NCBI RefSeq assembly: GCF_029318635.1
Contig: NZ_CP119676.1
Span: forward strand, 1,749,001 to 1,813,000
Direction: 5' to 3'
DNA length: 64,000 bases
DNA from: Varunaivibrio sulfuroxidans
Lineage (GTDB): Bacteria; Pseudomonadota; Alphaproteobacteria; Rhodospirillales; Magnetovibrionaceae
This document shows positions 1 through 51,532 of the stretch, one piece after another. The notes beneath the pieces were generated by a model. The model saw only the letters and a list, made by a program, of their open reading frames with translations. It ran no database searches and was not told the DNA's origin. Position 1 is the first letter of the stretch, and the number at the start of each line of letters is the position of its first letter. The translations under genes were made by a program, and so were the position numbers.

Positions 1-69
1 TGCAGTTTGATTTCTTCACACATTTGTGTCCAATTGCATCGGACTCAAATGTTAAACTCAAACCACTAG
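1..69. repeat. 69-bp intergenic repeat, copy 1 (cut by window start)
   Basis: This stretch matches positions 23544-23612 over 69 bases with one difference (A at 65, G at 23608). It contains nested inverted repeats (GTTTGA/TCAAAC, ACATTTG/CAAATGT, GTCC/GGAC), so the transcript could fold into a long imperfect hairpin. Its right edge, read on the minus strand, starts with TAG, which is the stop codon of the DUF3501 gene. It may extend left beyond the window. Confidence 0.9.
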
Positions 70-674
70 GCGTCATCAAAATCCGACGCCAAGGCCTCCC
101 GGACGTCGCCACTCACCCGGCTCATATGGCCGTACTGGGGATGTTCGATCGATAGAACCACATCGTTCTTCGGATCGCGAAAGGCGGAGATTTGTTGATC
201 CGTCAGAGGAAAATGCAAAAATTGGATGGCGGACGCCTTGCCTTCCGCCGTGGTCCGATCGACATCTGTCTCGGCGATGGCGTGCACGCTGTCCGCGCCG
301 ATACGCAGATAAACGGTTTCCTCGACGCCGCCCAAATCGGCCAAAAAACGGCCTCGGCGCTCGGGGTCGTCGATCTCAAACATCAAAGTCGCGACAAGAT
401 CGTGTCCTTTTGGGATTAATGGATTATAGGCGCGAAGCTCGTCTTCAATTTGATTTTCGCCCCCCTGCTCAATGTACAACATCTCATGAATTTGATGAAA
501 CATGGTGTCGTAGCTTTCAAAGTAGAAGGTGGCGTCGGGGCCGACGTGAACGCGCCGATTTTTTTTCAGCGCGCTCATTTCCTTGCGCCGCCGGTCGCGT
601 TGCTGGGCGTAGGCCGCCATGTTCATGATATCCGCGGGCGTAATCTCGTGTTTATGCATAAGGATGTCTCTCAT
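66..674 (-). CDS. DUF3501 family protein
   Basis: A 202-residue protein of the DUF3501 family, recognised from KKNRRVHVGP, the ATFYFES segment and the AYNPLIP motif. The family's biochemical function is unknown, but its members usually sit beside an Fe-S oxidoreductase-like gene and a rubrerythrin, as here. The ATG at 674 overlaps the stop of the upstream Fe-S gene as ATGA, indicating translational coupling. An in-frame extension to 1172 exists but runs antiparallel through the Fe-S gene in another frame and is not credible. There is no signal peptide or membrane segment, so it is probably cytoplasmic. The TAG stop lies in the terminal bases of a 69-bp repeat. A role beside the Fe-S protein in redox or peroxide defence is inferred from context only. 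Confidence 0.85.
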   Translation of the reverse strand: MRDILMHKHEITPADIMNMAAYAQQRDRRRKEMSALKKNRRVHVGPDATFYFESYDTMFHQIHEMLYIEQGGENQIEDELRAYNPLIPKGHDLVATLMFEIDDPERRGRFLADLGGVEETVYLRIGADSVHAIAETDVDRTTAEGKASAIQFLHFPLTDQQISAFRDPKNDVVLSIEHPQYGHMSRVSGDVREALASDFDDA

Positions 675-2011
675 AATCCGTAAGACTTTGCGATCAACTG
701 AATCGGGTGCTTTTCCACGGTCTGTACTGCTTTTCCCCCCTCGTCCAGCCCTTCCATGCCCTGCAGGATATGGCCACGGGCCAGGGGACATTCGGAGACC
801 AGAAAGGTCGGTTTCGCCTGCGTCGCTTGGCGAAATACCGGCTTGCCGATTTTCATTCCCACCTCGAAATTTTCGGTGCGCGTACCCCACGCCCCACCGT
901 GACCGGAACACCGCTCGATCACCGTGATCTTGGTGTCGGGAATAAGACGCAGAAGTTCCGCGCCCTTTTGCCCCATGTTTTGCGCCCGGGCATGACAGGG
1001 GATATGGATGGCGACATCCCCCTGAAGGGGTTTCAGACCTTCGCTCATTCCTTCTTTTTTGGCCATGGCGACCATGTATTCGGCGGCGTCGAAGGTCGCC
1101 TTGGAAAGGTCGGCGATCGCGGCATCGTCGGGTTCGATCAGGGGCCATTCGAATTTGACCATCAGGGCGCACGAGGACACCGGGGCGACGATGTCATAGC
1201 CTTTGGCGATCCACGGCGCGAAGGCCTCGGCGACCCGCTTGGCGCTTTTAGCGACCGCTTCAATATCGCCATGCTCCAACTGCGGCATACCGCAACAACC
1301 GGGATGAATGACTTCGGTCTCGACGCCGTTCCGAGCCAGGACCTTACGCGTATCGAGGACGATATCGGCGCTGTTGTATTCACCGAAACAGGTCGCGTAA
1401 ATCACGGCCTTGCGGCCGAAAGCCGGGGCCTGTTTGTTGACTACGATCGACTGGGCCGCCGCCTGGGCGCTACTGGTCTTGGGCGAGAACGGCGGCAATT
1501 CGGCGTCCTTGTGAACGCCGAGGAGGGCCTGCATGAGCGGGCGGGTGAAGGCGTTGCCGCGCTGCGACGCCCAGTTGGCGAGCGAGGAAAAGGTGCAGCC
1601 TAGCTTTCCGTTCTTGTCGGTCTGGGTCAGCAGAACCTCGCTGCGCGCAATTTTTCCTTGGCGAAACGCCTGGGCGCGCGCGCGCACCATCAAATGGGGA
1701 AAGTCGAGATTAAAATCGTGGGGCGGCACATAGGGACACTTTGTCAGAAAACACATGTCGCACAGGGTGCACGCTTCGACGATCGGGGCGAAATCTTTCG
1801 AATTAACACTGTCCAGTTCGCCGCTTTCGGATTCATCGACGAGATCGAACAGGCGCGGAAAACTATCGCACAAATTAAAACAGCGCCGGCACCCATGACA
1901 AATATCGAAGACACGGCGCAGTTCCACATCCAATTTCTCGGGATCATAGAAATCTGCTTCCCGCCACGCGATCGGATGGCGCGTCGGCGCATCGAGACTG
2001 CCTTCTCTCAT
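671..2011 (-). CDS. GlpC/HdrD-like Fe-S binding protein with two CCG-type domains
   Basis: A 446-residue protein with two 4Fe-4S ferredoxin motifs near the N-terminus (Cys38/41/44/48 and Cys81/84/87/92), followed by cysteine-rich CCG-type domains. The motif HPGCCGMP lies mid-protein and a degenerate CSGHGG motif lies nearer the C-terminus. This is the architecture of glycerol-3-phosphate dehydrogenase subunit C and heterodisulfide reductase D subunits, but no catalytic partner gene is adjacent. I chose the ATG at 2011, which has GGTGATC just upstream, over a TTG at 2044. It overlaps the DUF3501 gene by four bases. A rubrerythrin gene lies upstream behind a terminator. Electron transfer to rubrerythrin is plausible but inferred. 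No membrane segment is visible. Confidence 0.8.
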   Translation of the reverse strand: MREGSLDAPTRHPIAWREADFYDPEKLDVELRRVFDICHGCRRCFNLCDSFPRLFDLVDESESGELDSVNSKDFAPIVEACTLCDMCFLTKCPYVPPHDFNLDFPHLMVRARAQAFRQGKIARSEVLLTQTDKNGKLGCTFSSLANWASQRGNAFTRPLMQALLGVHKDAELPPFSPKTSSAQAAAQSIVVNKQAPAFGRKAVIYATCFGEYNSADIVLDTRKVLARNGVETEVIHPGCCGMPQLEHGDIEAVAKSAKRVAEAFAPWIAKGYDIVAPVSSCALMVKFEWPLIEPDDAAIADLSKATFDAAEYMVAMAKKEGMSEGLKPLQGDVAIHIPCHARAQNMGQKGAELLRLIPDTKITVIERCSGHGGAWGTRTENFEVGMKIGKPVFRQATQAKPTFLVSECPLARGHILQGMEGLDEGGKAVQTVEKHPIQLIAKSYGL

Positions 2012-19072: not shown

Positions 19073-20104
19073 TCACGACGCCTCGCGGTCCCGATCGACG
19101 CCCTGCGCCAGCGAGACCTTAACCCGTTTAATCCGCCGCGGATCGGCATCGAGAATTTCGAATTCCACCCCGGCGCGATGACGCAAAATTTCGCCCCGAA
19201 TCGGCACGCGACCCGCCAAAGAAAAGACCAAACCGCCGAGGGTGTCGAAATCCTCGCGCTCATCCTCATCGACAAACGGGCCGATGGCTTCCTCAAGGGC
19301 TTCGATATCCACCCGCGCGCTGGCGTCGATGGCGCCGTCGGCGCGCTTGAGCAGGGGCGGCGCCTCCTCGCGATCGTGCTCGTCTTCTATTTCTCCGACG
19401 ATCACCTCGACAAGATCCTCGATCGTCACCAAACCGTCGATGCCGCCATATTCATCCACCACCAACGCCAAATGGCAGCGTTTGACCCGCATTTCCAGCA
19501 ACAGTTCCAACACCTGCATCGACGGCGCAACGAACAAAACCTTGCGCAACAGATCGCCGATGGCCGCATCCTCGTCGGCGCACCCGTCGCCGCCACGAGT
19601 CAACACGTCCTTAATGTGGACCATCCCGATAACATCGTCCAAATTCGCCCGATAGACCGGATAACGCGAATGACCATGCCGGGCGACCGCCGCAATAACA
19701 TCATGCACGCGGGCCTCCGACTCGATGGCGACGATATCGGCGCGGGGAATCATCACGTCCTCGACATCGAGACCCCGGGCTTGCAGGATGTTGGAGAACA
19801 AGGCCCGTTCGTCATCCCCCATCGGCTGAGCGCTGTCTTCGTGGCGATCGATCAATTCTTCCAGGGTTTCACGCACGCCGTGTTCGCCATCGCCGCGCGC
19901 CGGCGCGAACAGGGAAATCAAGCGCCGCCATAACCCCGAACGTCCTCCAGACGCAGAAGACGGGCCATCGGTCGGCGAGGCCTGGGCATTCGAGGTCGTG
20001 GACGCCAAAGTGTCGGGGGACGCCAAAGTGTTGGGGGGCGTCGGAGTGTCGGGGGACGCCGAAGTGTCGGGGGGTGTCGGAGTGTCGGGGGGCGTGTCGG
20101 TCAT
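19073..20104 (-). CDS. corC: CorC/HlyC-type CBS-domain protein
   Basis: A 343-residue protein with two CBS domains ([13 protein letters not shown] at the start of the first; [27 protein letters not shown] in the second) and a C-terminal CorC_HlyC domain ending in [12 protein letters not shown]. The DUF21 membrane domain is absent, as in short CorC proteins linked to magnesium/cobalt efflux. The first 50 residues are a Pro/Thr/Ser/Asp repeat region ([11 protein letters not shown]-like units), encoded by imperfect repeats at about 19995-20095, and are unlikely to fold. It lies between ybeY and lnt. Confidence 0.88.
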
Positions 20105-23175: not shown

Positions 23176-23608
23176 TTAAAAATTTGAAAAACCGATCCTG
23201 GAAAACCAAATCCGCCAACGCGCGGAGCCTTATCTTACGCGCGTCTCATGTCGATCTTGCGCTTGTCTCAAGGTCATGGCGAGCTCACTATTGCGGCGAA
23301 AATCCCGGATTCCAGCTGAAACCTAGCACTGCGGCCTTGCAAGTCAAGAAAAGTCGCCGCGCGAGGACGCATAAAGATCGGTTTCGGCGCCACCCCTCCG
23401 CCCGAAGCGGAGCGCATCTTCGCGCCGCCACTCCTGTACCCGGCGAGGCGGCGGGAGGGAAAGCTTAGGGCTAGGACCTAGTGGACCGACTCCGACGTTT
23501 CGCTCCCGCGAACCATCGGGCCGACCACTATCTATCTTTTTGTTGCAGTTTGATTTCTTCACACATTTGTGTCCAATTGCATCGGACTCAAATGTTAAAC
23601 TCAAACCG
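23176..23608. other. Intergenic region between miaB and fur with repeat elements
   Basis: No gene is seen in this 433-bp stretch. The half next to miaB (23176-23460) should carry its promoter but shows no clear conserved box. The other half holds a TAGTGG...CCACTA element (23479-23530), a short T-rich linker and the second copy of the 69-bp repeat running into the fur stop codon. Confidence 0.7.
23479..23530. repeat. TAGTGG/CCACTA-bounded repeat, copy 1
   Basis: A 52-bp element with TAGTGG at the left end and CCACTA at the right. It contains a 24-nt core (23492-23515) identical to 50422-50445. The core can form a small GTTTCGC/GCGAAC hairpin. It lies 13 bp from the 69-bp repeat. Confidence 0.85.
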
Positions 23609-23612
23609 CTAG
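23544..23612. repeat. 69-bp intergenic repeat, copy 2
   Basis: 68 of 69 bases match window positions 1-69. On the minus strand its first bases TAG are the fur stop codon, as in copy 1 for the DUF3501 gene. Nested inverted arms (GTTTGA/TCAAAC, ACATTTG/CAAATGT, GTCC/GGAC) predict a long imperfect hairpin in the 3' UTR. It is clearly more AT-rich than the flanking genes. Confidence 0.95.
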
Positions 23613-40555: not shown

Positions 40556-40651
40556 GGAAGGTTGGCGGCGGACGAACGCCTCGCCAATCCGGTCAGGTCC
40601 GGAAGGAAGCAGCCGCAACGAGTTTCCGTTCGGGTCGCTCGCCAGCCTTCC
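40556..40651 (+). ncRNA. ffs: Small signal recognition particle RNA (4.5S)
   Basis: The conserved apical hairpin GGTCAGGTCCGGAAGGAAGC and the following AGCCGCAACGAG are the Ffh-binding loop of bacterial 4.5S RNA. The outer strands GGAAGGTTGGCG and CGCCAGCCTTCC pair to close the hairpin, fixing the ends within a few bases. A TATAGT -10-like hexamer lies about 9 bp before. It precedes dnaX, the usual order in alphaproteobacteria. Confidence 0.95.
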
Positions 40652-43398: not shown

Positions 43399-43456
43399 TA
43401 GGGTCGGGCCCTCTTCATCTCTGCCAGACGCATCAGATGAAGAGGTCCCGACCCTA
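43399..43456. repeat. 58-bp near-perfect inverted repeat between convergent genes
   Basis: Arms of 22 bp (43399-43420 and 43435-43456) match with a single mismatch and a 14-nt loop. The right end CTA is, on the minus strand, the TAG stop of the exonuclease gene. No T-run follows on either strand, but it could act as a bidirectional terminator. The ends TAGGGTCGGG recall the TAGGG/TAGTGG ends of the other repeats. Confidence 0.9.
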
Positions 43457-48943: not shown

Positions 48944-49465
48944 ATGGCGATCATGCCCATTATCGTCGCGCCCGACCCCCGCCTTAAGGTGTCGTGCAAG
49001 GCCGTCCCCAAGGTGACCAACGCCGTCGCCGCCTTGATGGACGATATGCTGCAAACCATGTACGCCGCCAACGGCATCGGATTGGCCGCGCCTCAGGTCG
49101 GCGATAAGCGGCGGGTCGTCGTCGTCGATGTGTCGCGCTCGGACGAGCCGCCCGCCCCGATTTGCATGGCCAATCCGGAAATCATATGGGAATCCGACGA
49201 CGCGACCCTTCATGAAGAGGGCTGCCTATCGCTGCCCGAACATTACTCCGACGTTCTGCGTCCCAGCGTCGTGACGGTGCGCTACGTGGATCGCGAAAAC
49301 GAAATTCGCGAACTGACCGCCGAGGGTATTTTGTCGGTATGCATTCAGCATGAGATCGACCACCTGGACGGTGTTTTGTTCGTCGATCATATCTCGTCGC
49401 TGAAACGCAACATGATTTTACGTAAACTGGTCAAAAGCAAAAAAATGACGGAAGCCCCGGCCTAA
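48944..49465 (+). CDS. def: Peptide deformylase
   Basis: A 173-residue metalloenzyme removing formyl groups from nascent proteins. The three motifs [17 protein letters not shown] and QHEIDHLDG carry the metal ligands. ATG at 48944 begins at MAIMPII; longer in-frame reading to 48881 is not typical. The stop overlaps fmt as TAATG. Confidence 0.96.
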
Positions 49466-50412
49466 TGGTTAAACCCCTGCGCCTGGCGTTCATGGGGACG
49501 CCCGACTTTTCCGTCCCCATTTTAGACGCGCTGATCGACGCCGGGCATGATGTCGTCTGCGTCTATGCCCAGCCTCCCCGACGCGCGGGGCGCGGGCATA
49601 AGGAACAGCCCACGCCGGTGCACGCCCGCGCCCAGGCGCGGGGCATTCCCGTGCGCACGCCGGTGTCGCTGAAAAATCCCGATGAACAGCACGCGTTCGC
49701 CGACCTGCGCCTGGACGCCGGTATCGTCGCCGCCTATGGGCTGATTCTGCCGAAAGCCGTCTTGGAAGCGCCGCGATTAGGCTGCATCAACGTTCACGCC
49801 TCGCTGTTGCCGCGCTGGCGCGGCGCGGCGCCCCTGCAGCGGGCGATCATGGCCGGGGATACGCGCACCGGGGTCACCATCATGCAGATGGATGAAGGCC
49901 TGGACACCGGCGATATTCTATGCATGGAAGAAACGCCGATTGGCCCCGACACCACCGTGGCCGAGCTTCACGACCGGCTTAGCGCGATCGGCGCGCGTAT
50001 GATCGCGCCCGCCCTTGAGGGCCGCGACACGGGCGCACTCAAAGGCCGACCGCAACCCGACGCCGGGGCCTGTTATGCGGCGAAGATCACGCGCGAGGAA
50101 ATGCGCATCGACTGGAACGTCTCGGCGAGCCGGATCGCGCGCCAAGTGCGTGGCCTTTACCCCCGGGCCTGGTGCACATTCGAGGGAGAGAGAATCCGCA
50201 TCCTCGCCGCCAAGGCGGAGGACGCCAAAACCGGCGAGGCGAAAACCCATATTTCCGGCGTTCCCGGCGAGGTCATTGACGACGCGCTCGCCGTGCGCTG
50301 CGGCGACGGCGTTTTGCGCCTGATCGCGGTCCAGCGCGCGGGCAAGTCCGCCCTCGCCGCGGCCGACTTCCTGCGCGGCAATCCGATCGCGCCGGGCGCG
50401 CGGTTTCTCTAG
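49465..50412 (+). CDS. fmt: Methionyl-tRNA formyltransferase
   Basis: A 315-residue Fmt that formylates initiator Met-t[18 protein letters not shown] starts the Rossmann-like domain, [20 protein letters not shown] holds the folate/catalytic loop, and the C-terminal OB fold follows about residue 210. Coupled to def. The TAG stop is the first triplet of a repeat element. Confidence 0.96.
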
Positions 50413-50467
50413 TGGATCGGCCCGACGTTTCGCTCCCGCGAACCACTAGGGTCAGACTTCGTCCCTA
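50410..50467. repeat. TAGTGG repeat, copy 2, filling the fmt-unknown junction
   Basis: TAGTGG at 50410 and CCACTA at 50443-50448 bound a unit with the 24-nt core shared with 23492-23515; it continues as a second small hairpin (TAGGG/CCCTA, 50447-50467). Its first TAG is the fmt stop and its last CTA is the minus-strand stop of the unknown gene, so the whole intergenic space is repeat. Confidence 0.9.
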
Positions 50468-51532
50468 AACCCGCGACGCCCACTGACGGTCCGCATGGGG
50501 ATGAGCCTGGGTGGCGTCCTTGCGCAACTTGCGAATACTCTCGATGCCCTGCTTCATCTCGCTGAGGATAAATTCCGATCGCTTGACCGGACCGCCGACG
50601 GATTTGCTGGGAAACAGGGCGTGCCAAGCATCCATCTTGACGCTAAGCGCACACAAAATCGCACCGATCGTGGTGTGATAGCCCGAAATCATATCCTCGA
50701 CCTCGTGAAATTTTTCGGCGCTGATGTTATCCCACATGTGGCGGCTGTTTTTATCGAAATCATCGAAAAGGCGCTTGATGTTGGCGGTCAAGCTGATGAT
50801 CGTGCTTTCCAAGACGTCACAGGTGGTCATTAGGTTCTGATCGTTTCTGAGTTGCCAGTTTTTACGAATGTCCTTCAATGACGAAAGAAAGTTGGCGGTC
50901 GTCGGCAAGATTCGATCGAGGCAATTCTTATAGTAGGAAAGCGAGAGGAAAATATCGCCGTAATCCTCAAGAAAATGAGGCACCTCGGACAACGGTATGC
51001 CGAGCTTGACGGCGACCATTTGCAATTTTTCCTTGGCGCGGCGGATATCCGGGTCCTTGAACAATTTAATGATGTCCTCGAAGCGTTGGATCGACATGTC
51101 GTCGCTGCCGTAGATTTCGACAATCAACGGCAACGTGAACGCCTTCATATAGCTCGCCAGTTCGAGGTTCTTGGTTTCCGACAGACGCAAGTCGTCAAAA
51201 TTGTTGACCGGGATGTCCTGGTCGCGCAGGGCGACGCGCAAACTGTAGACATCGTAGCTGGGCAACCGCGCCAAGCGGTGTAAAATACCGATATCCCGAT
51301 GCGAAGCGCTGCCCAAATCCTGAAGCTCCCGACTGAGATCCTCGACCCTGATCTGTCCGCTTCCGGTATGCACGTTGGAGAAAATTTCAACGACGGTTTC
51401 CAGGCGGGCGTTCTTGATCATCCGGGCGCGGCGCACCACGGGAGAATCGAAAGGAACGATCGCCAGCGGCAAAACGTGAAGCGCGTCGCGATCGTGGTCG
51501 CTGATTTCAACCGCATCTTTGTGAGTGCTCAT
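50465..51532 (-). CDS. Conserved-looking hypothetical protein, mostly helical
   Basis: A 355-residue protein I do not recognise. No signal peptide, membrane segment or enzyme motif is visible; the sequence is rich in amphipathic helices (ELASYMKAFTLPLIVEIYGS; RFEDIIKLFKDPDIRRAKEK) with no long low-complexity regions, and codon use matches neighbours, so it is a real gene. It lies between fmt and truA, divergent from truA. The ATG at 51532 has no strong ribosome-binding site. The stop lies in a repeat element. Function unknown; a cytoplasmic structural or regulatory role is only a guess. Confidence 0.75.
   Translation of the reverse strand: MSTHKDAVEISDHDRDALHVLPLAIVPFDSPVVRRARMIKNARLETVVEIFSNVHTGSGQIRVEDLSRELQDLGSASHRDIGILHRLARLPSYDVYSLRVALRDQDIPVNNFDDLRLSETKNLELASYMKAFTLPLIVEIYGSDDMSIQRFEDIIKLFKDPDIRRAKEKLQMVAVKLGIPLSEVPHFLEDYGDIFLSLSYYKNCLDRILPTTANFLSSLKDIRKNWQLRNDQNLMTTCDVLESTIISLTANIKRLFDDFDKNSRHMWDNISAEKFHEVEDMISGYHTTIGAILCALSVKMDAWHALFPSKSVGGPVKRSEFILSEMKQGIESIRKLRKDATQAHPHADRQWASRV

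Follow-up and report, generated by a model that had tools for sequence, protein, structure and literature searches.

The window analysed here is a stretch of 64,000 nucleotides (bases 1749001-1813000) of the 3.07-Mb single-contig genome of Varunaivibrio sulfuroxidans. At the junction under study fmt runs towards a conserved gene on the opposite strand, and two short repeats lie between both stop codons (window positions):

49465 to 50412, plus strand: fmt, methionyl-tRNA formyltransferase, with Formyl_trans_N and Formyl_trans_C matches
50410 to 50448, plus strand: 39-bp internally deleted copy of a family A element, the initial TAG of which is the fmt stop codon
50447 to 50467, plus strand: putative family C-like remnant of 21 bp, the minus-strand TAG of which is the stop codon of the convergent gene
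50465 to 51532, minus strand: conserved gene coding for 355 aa, no Pfam match; convergent orientation to fmt is also seen in relatives

The TAG stop codons occupy positions 50410-50412 (fmt, plus strand) and 50465-50467 (355-aa ORF, minus strand), and the 58 bp from stop to stop are filled by the adjoining repeats TAGTGG...CCACTA (50410-50448) and TAGGGTC...GTCCCTA (50447-50467). The original prediction that this space consists entirely of repeat is thus borne out by the sequence and the ORFs. It had also taken the space for a single repeat serving both stop codons; the repeat does fill the space, but it is composed of two elements, and one 58-bp repeat is ruled out at fmt since two families adjoin there. 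The 39-bp copy matches the left end and the core of a 133-bp consensus as well as its terminal ACCACTA. The remnant starts with TAGGGTCAG, as family C ends do, and it is by these short ends alone that it appears to be family C-like. Among the 29 loci fetched from relatives, 14 have an orthologue of the 355-aa gene beside fmt in convergent orientation. Removing both elements and one TA yields the joined site ...GGTTTCTC TA AACCCGCG..., in which the fmt stop codon reads TAA and that of the convergent gene TAG, with the TA common to both. The family A copy and the C-like remnant would now occupy a former CTAA, the TA of which probably belonged to both stop codons, and judged from this joined sequence the insertions would have changed the fmt stop codon from TAA to TAG at most. 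Any order of the insertion events at this locus would likewise be a reconstruction.

Family A is a 133-bp MITE-like element (TAGTGGATCGACTCCGACG ... CAAATGTTAAACTCAAACCACTA), of which 58 copies were found in the genome stretches read, 56 via a core word and two via BLAST in the fetched stretches. Exactly 133 bp are present in 42 copies, 15 of them identical to the consensus and 13 with a one-base difference, and this near-identity means that the family spread recently. It is short, occurs in many near-identical copies and carries no transposase gene, as MITEs do, while the inverted repeat of its ends is weak, TAGTGG alone being common to both. One reading frame passes through the element without any stop codon. 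The predicted fold of either strand consists of two hairpins and a linker. GANTC occurs among the first 25 bases in 38 of the 54 full-length copies and near position 95-120 in 50; in the predicted folds GACTC is placed within stems or at a bulge, not in the terminal loop.

Family C carries TAGGGTCAGGACC at both ends, i.e., terminal inverted repeats, and its length ranges from 16 to about 271 bp. It presents itself as a deletion series comprising copies of 36, 53, 58, 164 and 269 bp and 16-bp palindromes with little beyond the two C ends, the latter at 19511-19526 (L182), 570946-570961 (L194) and 1167955-1167970 (L203) in genome coordinates. In three cases (47972, 114545 and 165648) an A element separates the C ends, which are then 400 bp from each other.

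Three further genes in the window end on repeats in the same manner:

1 to 68, plus strand: right part of a family A element, the left part of which precedes the window; the DUF3501 stop codon is formed by its minus-strand TAG (66-68)
66 to 1172, minus strand: ORF with C-terminal DUF3501 domain (PF12007, residues 176-365 of 368, profile 1-187 of 187)
23479 to 23611, plus strand: full-length family A element; its minus-strand TAG (23609-23611) is the fur stop codon
23609 to 24166, minus strand: FUR family regulator (PF01475)
43399 to 43456, plus strand: family C element of 58 bp; its minus-strand TAG (43454-43456) is the exonuclease stop codon
43454 to 44287, minus strand: DNA_pol_B_exo2 exonuclease (PF10108, profile 2-213 of 213)

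Counting its left part before the window, the element reaching position 68 is a full one. All five genes named in the original prediction (fmt, the 355-aa gene, DUF3501, fur and the exonuclease gene) end on the terminal TAG of a repeat. As side observations, a bacterial small SRP RNA is located at 40560-40650, besides which an Rfam scan of the window yielded nothing, and a GGACGCCAAAGTGTCGGG-type unit is repeated in tandem in a coding region at 20000-20095, with four steps of 18 bp.

The coincidence at five of five genes might suggest that repeats supply new stop codons, i.e., that they land at random positions close to gene ends, where their TAG trims or truncates the proteins. The C-termini of orthologues do not favor this explanation, which we consider very improbable. 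For fmt, 58 relatives gave a match and 29 orthologous loci among them were fetched; weak or partial matches were left out of the table. The C-terminus at these 29 loci differs by 0 residues in 23, by -1 in two and by +1, +2, +4 and +10 in one each. For the exonuclease, the relatives of which at 16 loci show 57-70% identity (those named at rank level are Rhodospirillales, Rhodospirillaceae or Thalassospira, the others Proteobacteria), the difference among 13 orthologues is 0 in 11 and -1 in two. The ends of both proteins are thus unchanged relative to most of these sequences, and the claim that the repeat supplies the stop proved mostly wrong, as repeat-free orthologues end alike. The other three comparisons are less uniform. 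The DUF3501 protein exceeds its counterparts in 16 of 16 relatives by 2 residues (19 rows reduced to 16 genomes by dropping three repeat rows), and the FUR C-terminus varies from -4 to +12 among 18 relatives, with one at 0. For the 355-aa gene the 14 relatives differ by +31 in five, +32 in one, +20 in one and -2 to -9 in seven: six same-family relatives are 31-32 residues longer, which speaks for shortening by a repeat, whereas among eight more distant ones seven are shorter by 2-9 and one is longer by 20. In the tail alignment the conserved core ends before the tail, and the long tail is present only in the six same-family relatives examined. It is possible that the C-like remnant shortened this gene once; among the five genes it is the only one that, judging from the alignments, could have been shortened. 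Together with the two additional residues of the DUF3501 protein, this indicates that some ends may have moved. The probable previous state of the fmt, fur, DUF3501 and exonuclease sites is that suggested by distant relatives.

The reading frames at element ends address the same question beyond the window. The test asks which coding frame arrives at an element end and uses ends with an intact terminal TAG only, leaving out the 15 of 112 A ends without TAG (degraded); coding frames were called by a home-made codon model that was trained on 34 long window ORFs and missed the DUF3501 ORF in one setting. At the 97 intact A ends tested, 30 coding frames arrive, of which 29 are in the TAG frame, and at the 108 C ends 26 arrive, 24 of them in the TAG frame. 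Element-free CTAG sites (436 strands tested) are reached by a coding frame in 117 cases, 32 in the TAG frame (P 1e-12 for A and 7e-10 for C in comparison with these sites), and random positions (2865 tested) gave 303, 319 and 296 in the three frames, about one third each. If insertion were random, the TAG frame should account for about one third of the cases, against the observed 29 of 30 and 24 of 26. These frame counts and the orthologue ends refute gene truncation by repeats as a general rule. An ORF stop coincides with the element end at 29 of 97 intact A ends and 24 of 108 C ends compared with 32 of 395 strands of element-free CTAG, a comparison taken from a test looking 140 bp into the element, in which one A frame has no stop codon, and since replaced by the arriving-frame test. 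Any other distance between stop and element end is common to at most two (A) or five (C) ends. The proposed excess of TAG coincidence therefore extends beyond the window. Exceptions are the A end at 1160170 (1160170-1160302, L015), entered by a frame running through the whole element and beyond, and two C ends entered by a coding frame other than the TAG frame. A Pfam match (E 0.001) was obtained for 25 of the 29 ORFs stopping at A ends, among these NicO below Pfam's cut-off, and for 13 of the 15 scanned out of 24 ORFs stopping at C ends, including the exonuclease, and DnaJ below its cut-off.

The junctions reveal the target site. The four-base words flanking the 56 family A copies are CTAG/CTAG in 43 and CTAT/CTAT in one; 12 copies are degraded at one or both ends. 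Among 24 paired family C copies of at least 30 bp (shorter pairs were left out) the junctions read TTAG/CTAG in 11, CTAG/CTAG in nine, CTAG/CTAA in three and TTAG/CTAA in one, so that 15 of the 24 exclude a 4-bp duplication and all 24 fit TA. CTAG is a palindrome around TA and for family A duplications of 2 and 4 bp look alike save for the single CTAT/CTAT copy, which favors 4. Moreover, a repeated target inside family C is found at 24 places in the fetched stretches: four are filled by A, in both orientations and flanked by CTAG at either junction, while the 20 empty ones have a single CTAG in 13 cases and other letters in seven. The comparison of empty and filled copies demonstrates target-site duplication. 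CTAG is rare, with 393 occurrences in the fetched stretches including the elements compared with about 1947 expected from base composition. As family A targets CTAG and duplicates it, a TAG stop codon was present before the insertion, and the empty copies with their CTAG argue against newly supplied stop codons. A single full-length A at 2578094 has coding ORF stops at each end, and one element can therefore end two convergent genes. Tandem A elements at 2692566 and 2692697 (L036, L080) have one CTAG in common, as is expected if the rebuilt CTAG gets used again; a second tandem-like A start follows the copy at 1529364.

We therefore favor, with high confidence, the explanation that A and C are small non-autonomous MITE-like elements inserting in a stop-neutral manner via a duplicated CTAG or TA target, with selection filtering coding insertions. 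Family A inserts at CTAG and family C at TA, mostly within YTAR, and both duplicate their target. The rare word CTAG, read in the right frame, holds a TAG stop codon, and the duplicated target together with element ends reading TAG on both sides rebuilds it. Due to the rebuilt stop codon, an insertion on a stop codon leaves the protein unchanged in either orientation, and this may apply to both genes of a convergent pair. Other coding frames are almost free of insertions, presumably owing to removal by selection, and mobilisation would probably proceed by a transposase acting in trans. Hence the repeats mostly preserve stop codons rather than supply them.

The distribution over site classes was assessed from the joined flanks of the 43 of 56 A sites with CTAG at both junctions. 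These comprise 23 stop codons (one of two convergent genes), 17 intergenic sites and three inside coding regions, compared with 28, 69 and 82 for 179 control CTAG, most of which belong to stretches selected for the elements in them; in the window by itself (n = 22) the numbers are two, seven and 13. A insertions inside genes are largely missing, and the loss of harmful insertions explains this scarcity. Moreover, measured against unused CTAG, the use of stop codons exceeds that of intergenic sites about threefold (23:17 versus 28:69, P 0.003). From this ratio it might be argued that the transposition machinery prefers stop codons beyond the availability of CTAG, e.g., via a DNA state linked to translation or transcription, but the loss of harmful insertions upstream of genes yields the same bias and perhaps explains the stop excess over intergenic sites, and intergenic and nested CTAG sites are used too. 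We regard such a preference as improbable.

The same ratio, as well as the many copies at gene ends, would also fit elements that are kept at 3' ends, where their hairpins might terminate transcription in both directions or shield the 3' ends of RNA. The predicted folds of the two strands of the 133-bp element are better than those of shuffled sequences (z -4.5 and -7.6), whereas those of the 58-bp copy at fmt are not (z -0.7 and -0.9). Moreover, neighboring genes at the A elements (n = 56) are oriented in/in in 19, in/out in 29 and out/out in seven cases with one unclear, similar to element-free non-genic CTAG (n = 80) with 24, 41, 11 and four unclear (P 0.92). An enrichment of A between convergent genes is thus not supported, and since non-genic CTAG sites show a similar orientation of neighbors, these counts do not speak for terminators, a role which we consider unlikely. 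Beyond the stop-neutral insertion favored here, amber stop codons might constitute a renewable safe harbour, in which the stop codon is rebuilt on both sides, each insertion provides a further CTAG at which another element can insert, several families accumulate in the spaces between genes, proteins remain unchanged and stop codons are preferred beyond CTAG availability and selection; we hold this extended reading to be rather doubtful.

No family A copy was found in the 59 nearest relatives besides the own genome. Among 317 genomes of the order, the own genome aside, A relatives occur only in one genome of another family (G099), and a 24-base match is present in G134. One exact pattern gave no hits in named genomes and none in viral contigs, and plasmids and phages contained no match. 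The two A-like copies in G099 show identities of 77% across 133 bp and 72% across 129 bp. The TAG of the 77%-identical element is precisely the stop codon of a 270-aa hydroxylase, in which a 2OG-Fe(II) oxygenase and a complete PKHD_C domain are present; the left junction of this element is GTAG (not CTAG) and the right one CTAG. In the other copy the ends are degraded and coincide with no stop codon. A transposase with matching ends was not found in the genome, which was searched for PF13358 and PF01609 with one match each and no element-like pair of ends round them. The sole DDE_Tnp_1 match has an internal stop codon. A single IS630-type transposase region with a DDE_3 match lies between two similar ORFs of 196-198 aa (L125, genome coordinates 906876-907301).

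Several known systems resemble these elements, as far as the available parts of the sources describe them. CIR, the CcrM-associated (printed CerM-associated) intergenic repeats, occur in Caulobacter, Brucella and other alphaproteobacteria and have multiple stop codons in all six reading frames (PMC2229807). Family A is also a small alphaproteobacterial repeat with two predicted hairpin arms, a linker and GANTC. However, in CIR the GANTC lies at or in the terminal loop (PMC2229807), other than in the predicted fold of A, and A has one stop-free frame and a demonstrated CTAG target. Compared by description, A would thus resemble CIR in build and lack two described CIR features. The bacterial MITEs RUP (IS630-Spn1), Correia/NEMIS and ERIC/RU-1 are described with TA ends and TA duplication (PMC2229807, PMC2759123). 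Being short, without transposase, with terminal inverted repeats and a duplicated TA, family C fits these best, whereas family A needs CTAG, more than TA. RU-1 (ERIC) and QMITE2 are described to add residues to or extend protein C-termini (PMC2759123, PMC5896051), whereas ends are kept here. For IS5 of E. coli the usual duplicated target is given as CTAG (PMC10379815); the CTAT/CTAT copy of A fits such a 4-bp duplication, although A and C lack a transposase, and by this analogy IS5-like CTAG targeting may serve as a lead for family A. A and C share the tested features of MITEs, except for a partner transposase, of which none was found in the two families searched. In the available parts of open-licence papers, small repeats that restore a stop codon by inserting at CTAG were not found described, which is no proof of absence, and the terms 'stop codon' and 'CTAG' do not occur in the available part of a MITE review (PMC10969869).

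As a summary, the elements represent a small-repeat family that is new but belongs to a known type, and the stop-codon-neutral placement of which is unusually clean. By targeting an avoided four-letter word that is often a stop codon and is rebuilt upon insertion, they would spread at almost no cost in a gene-dense genome. Coincidence of a gene end with a repeat is not necessarily a sign of truncation, and the rule can be checked in any genome via the reading frames at element ends.
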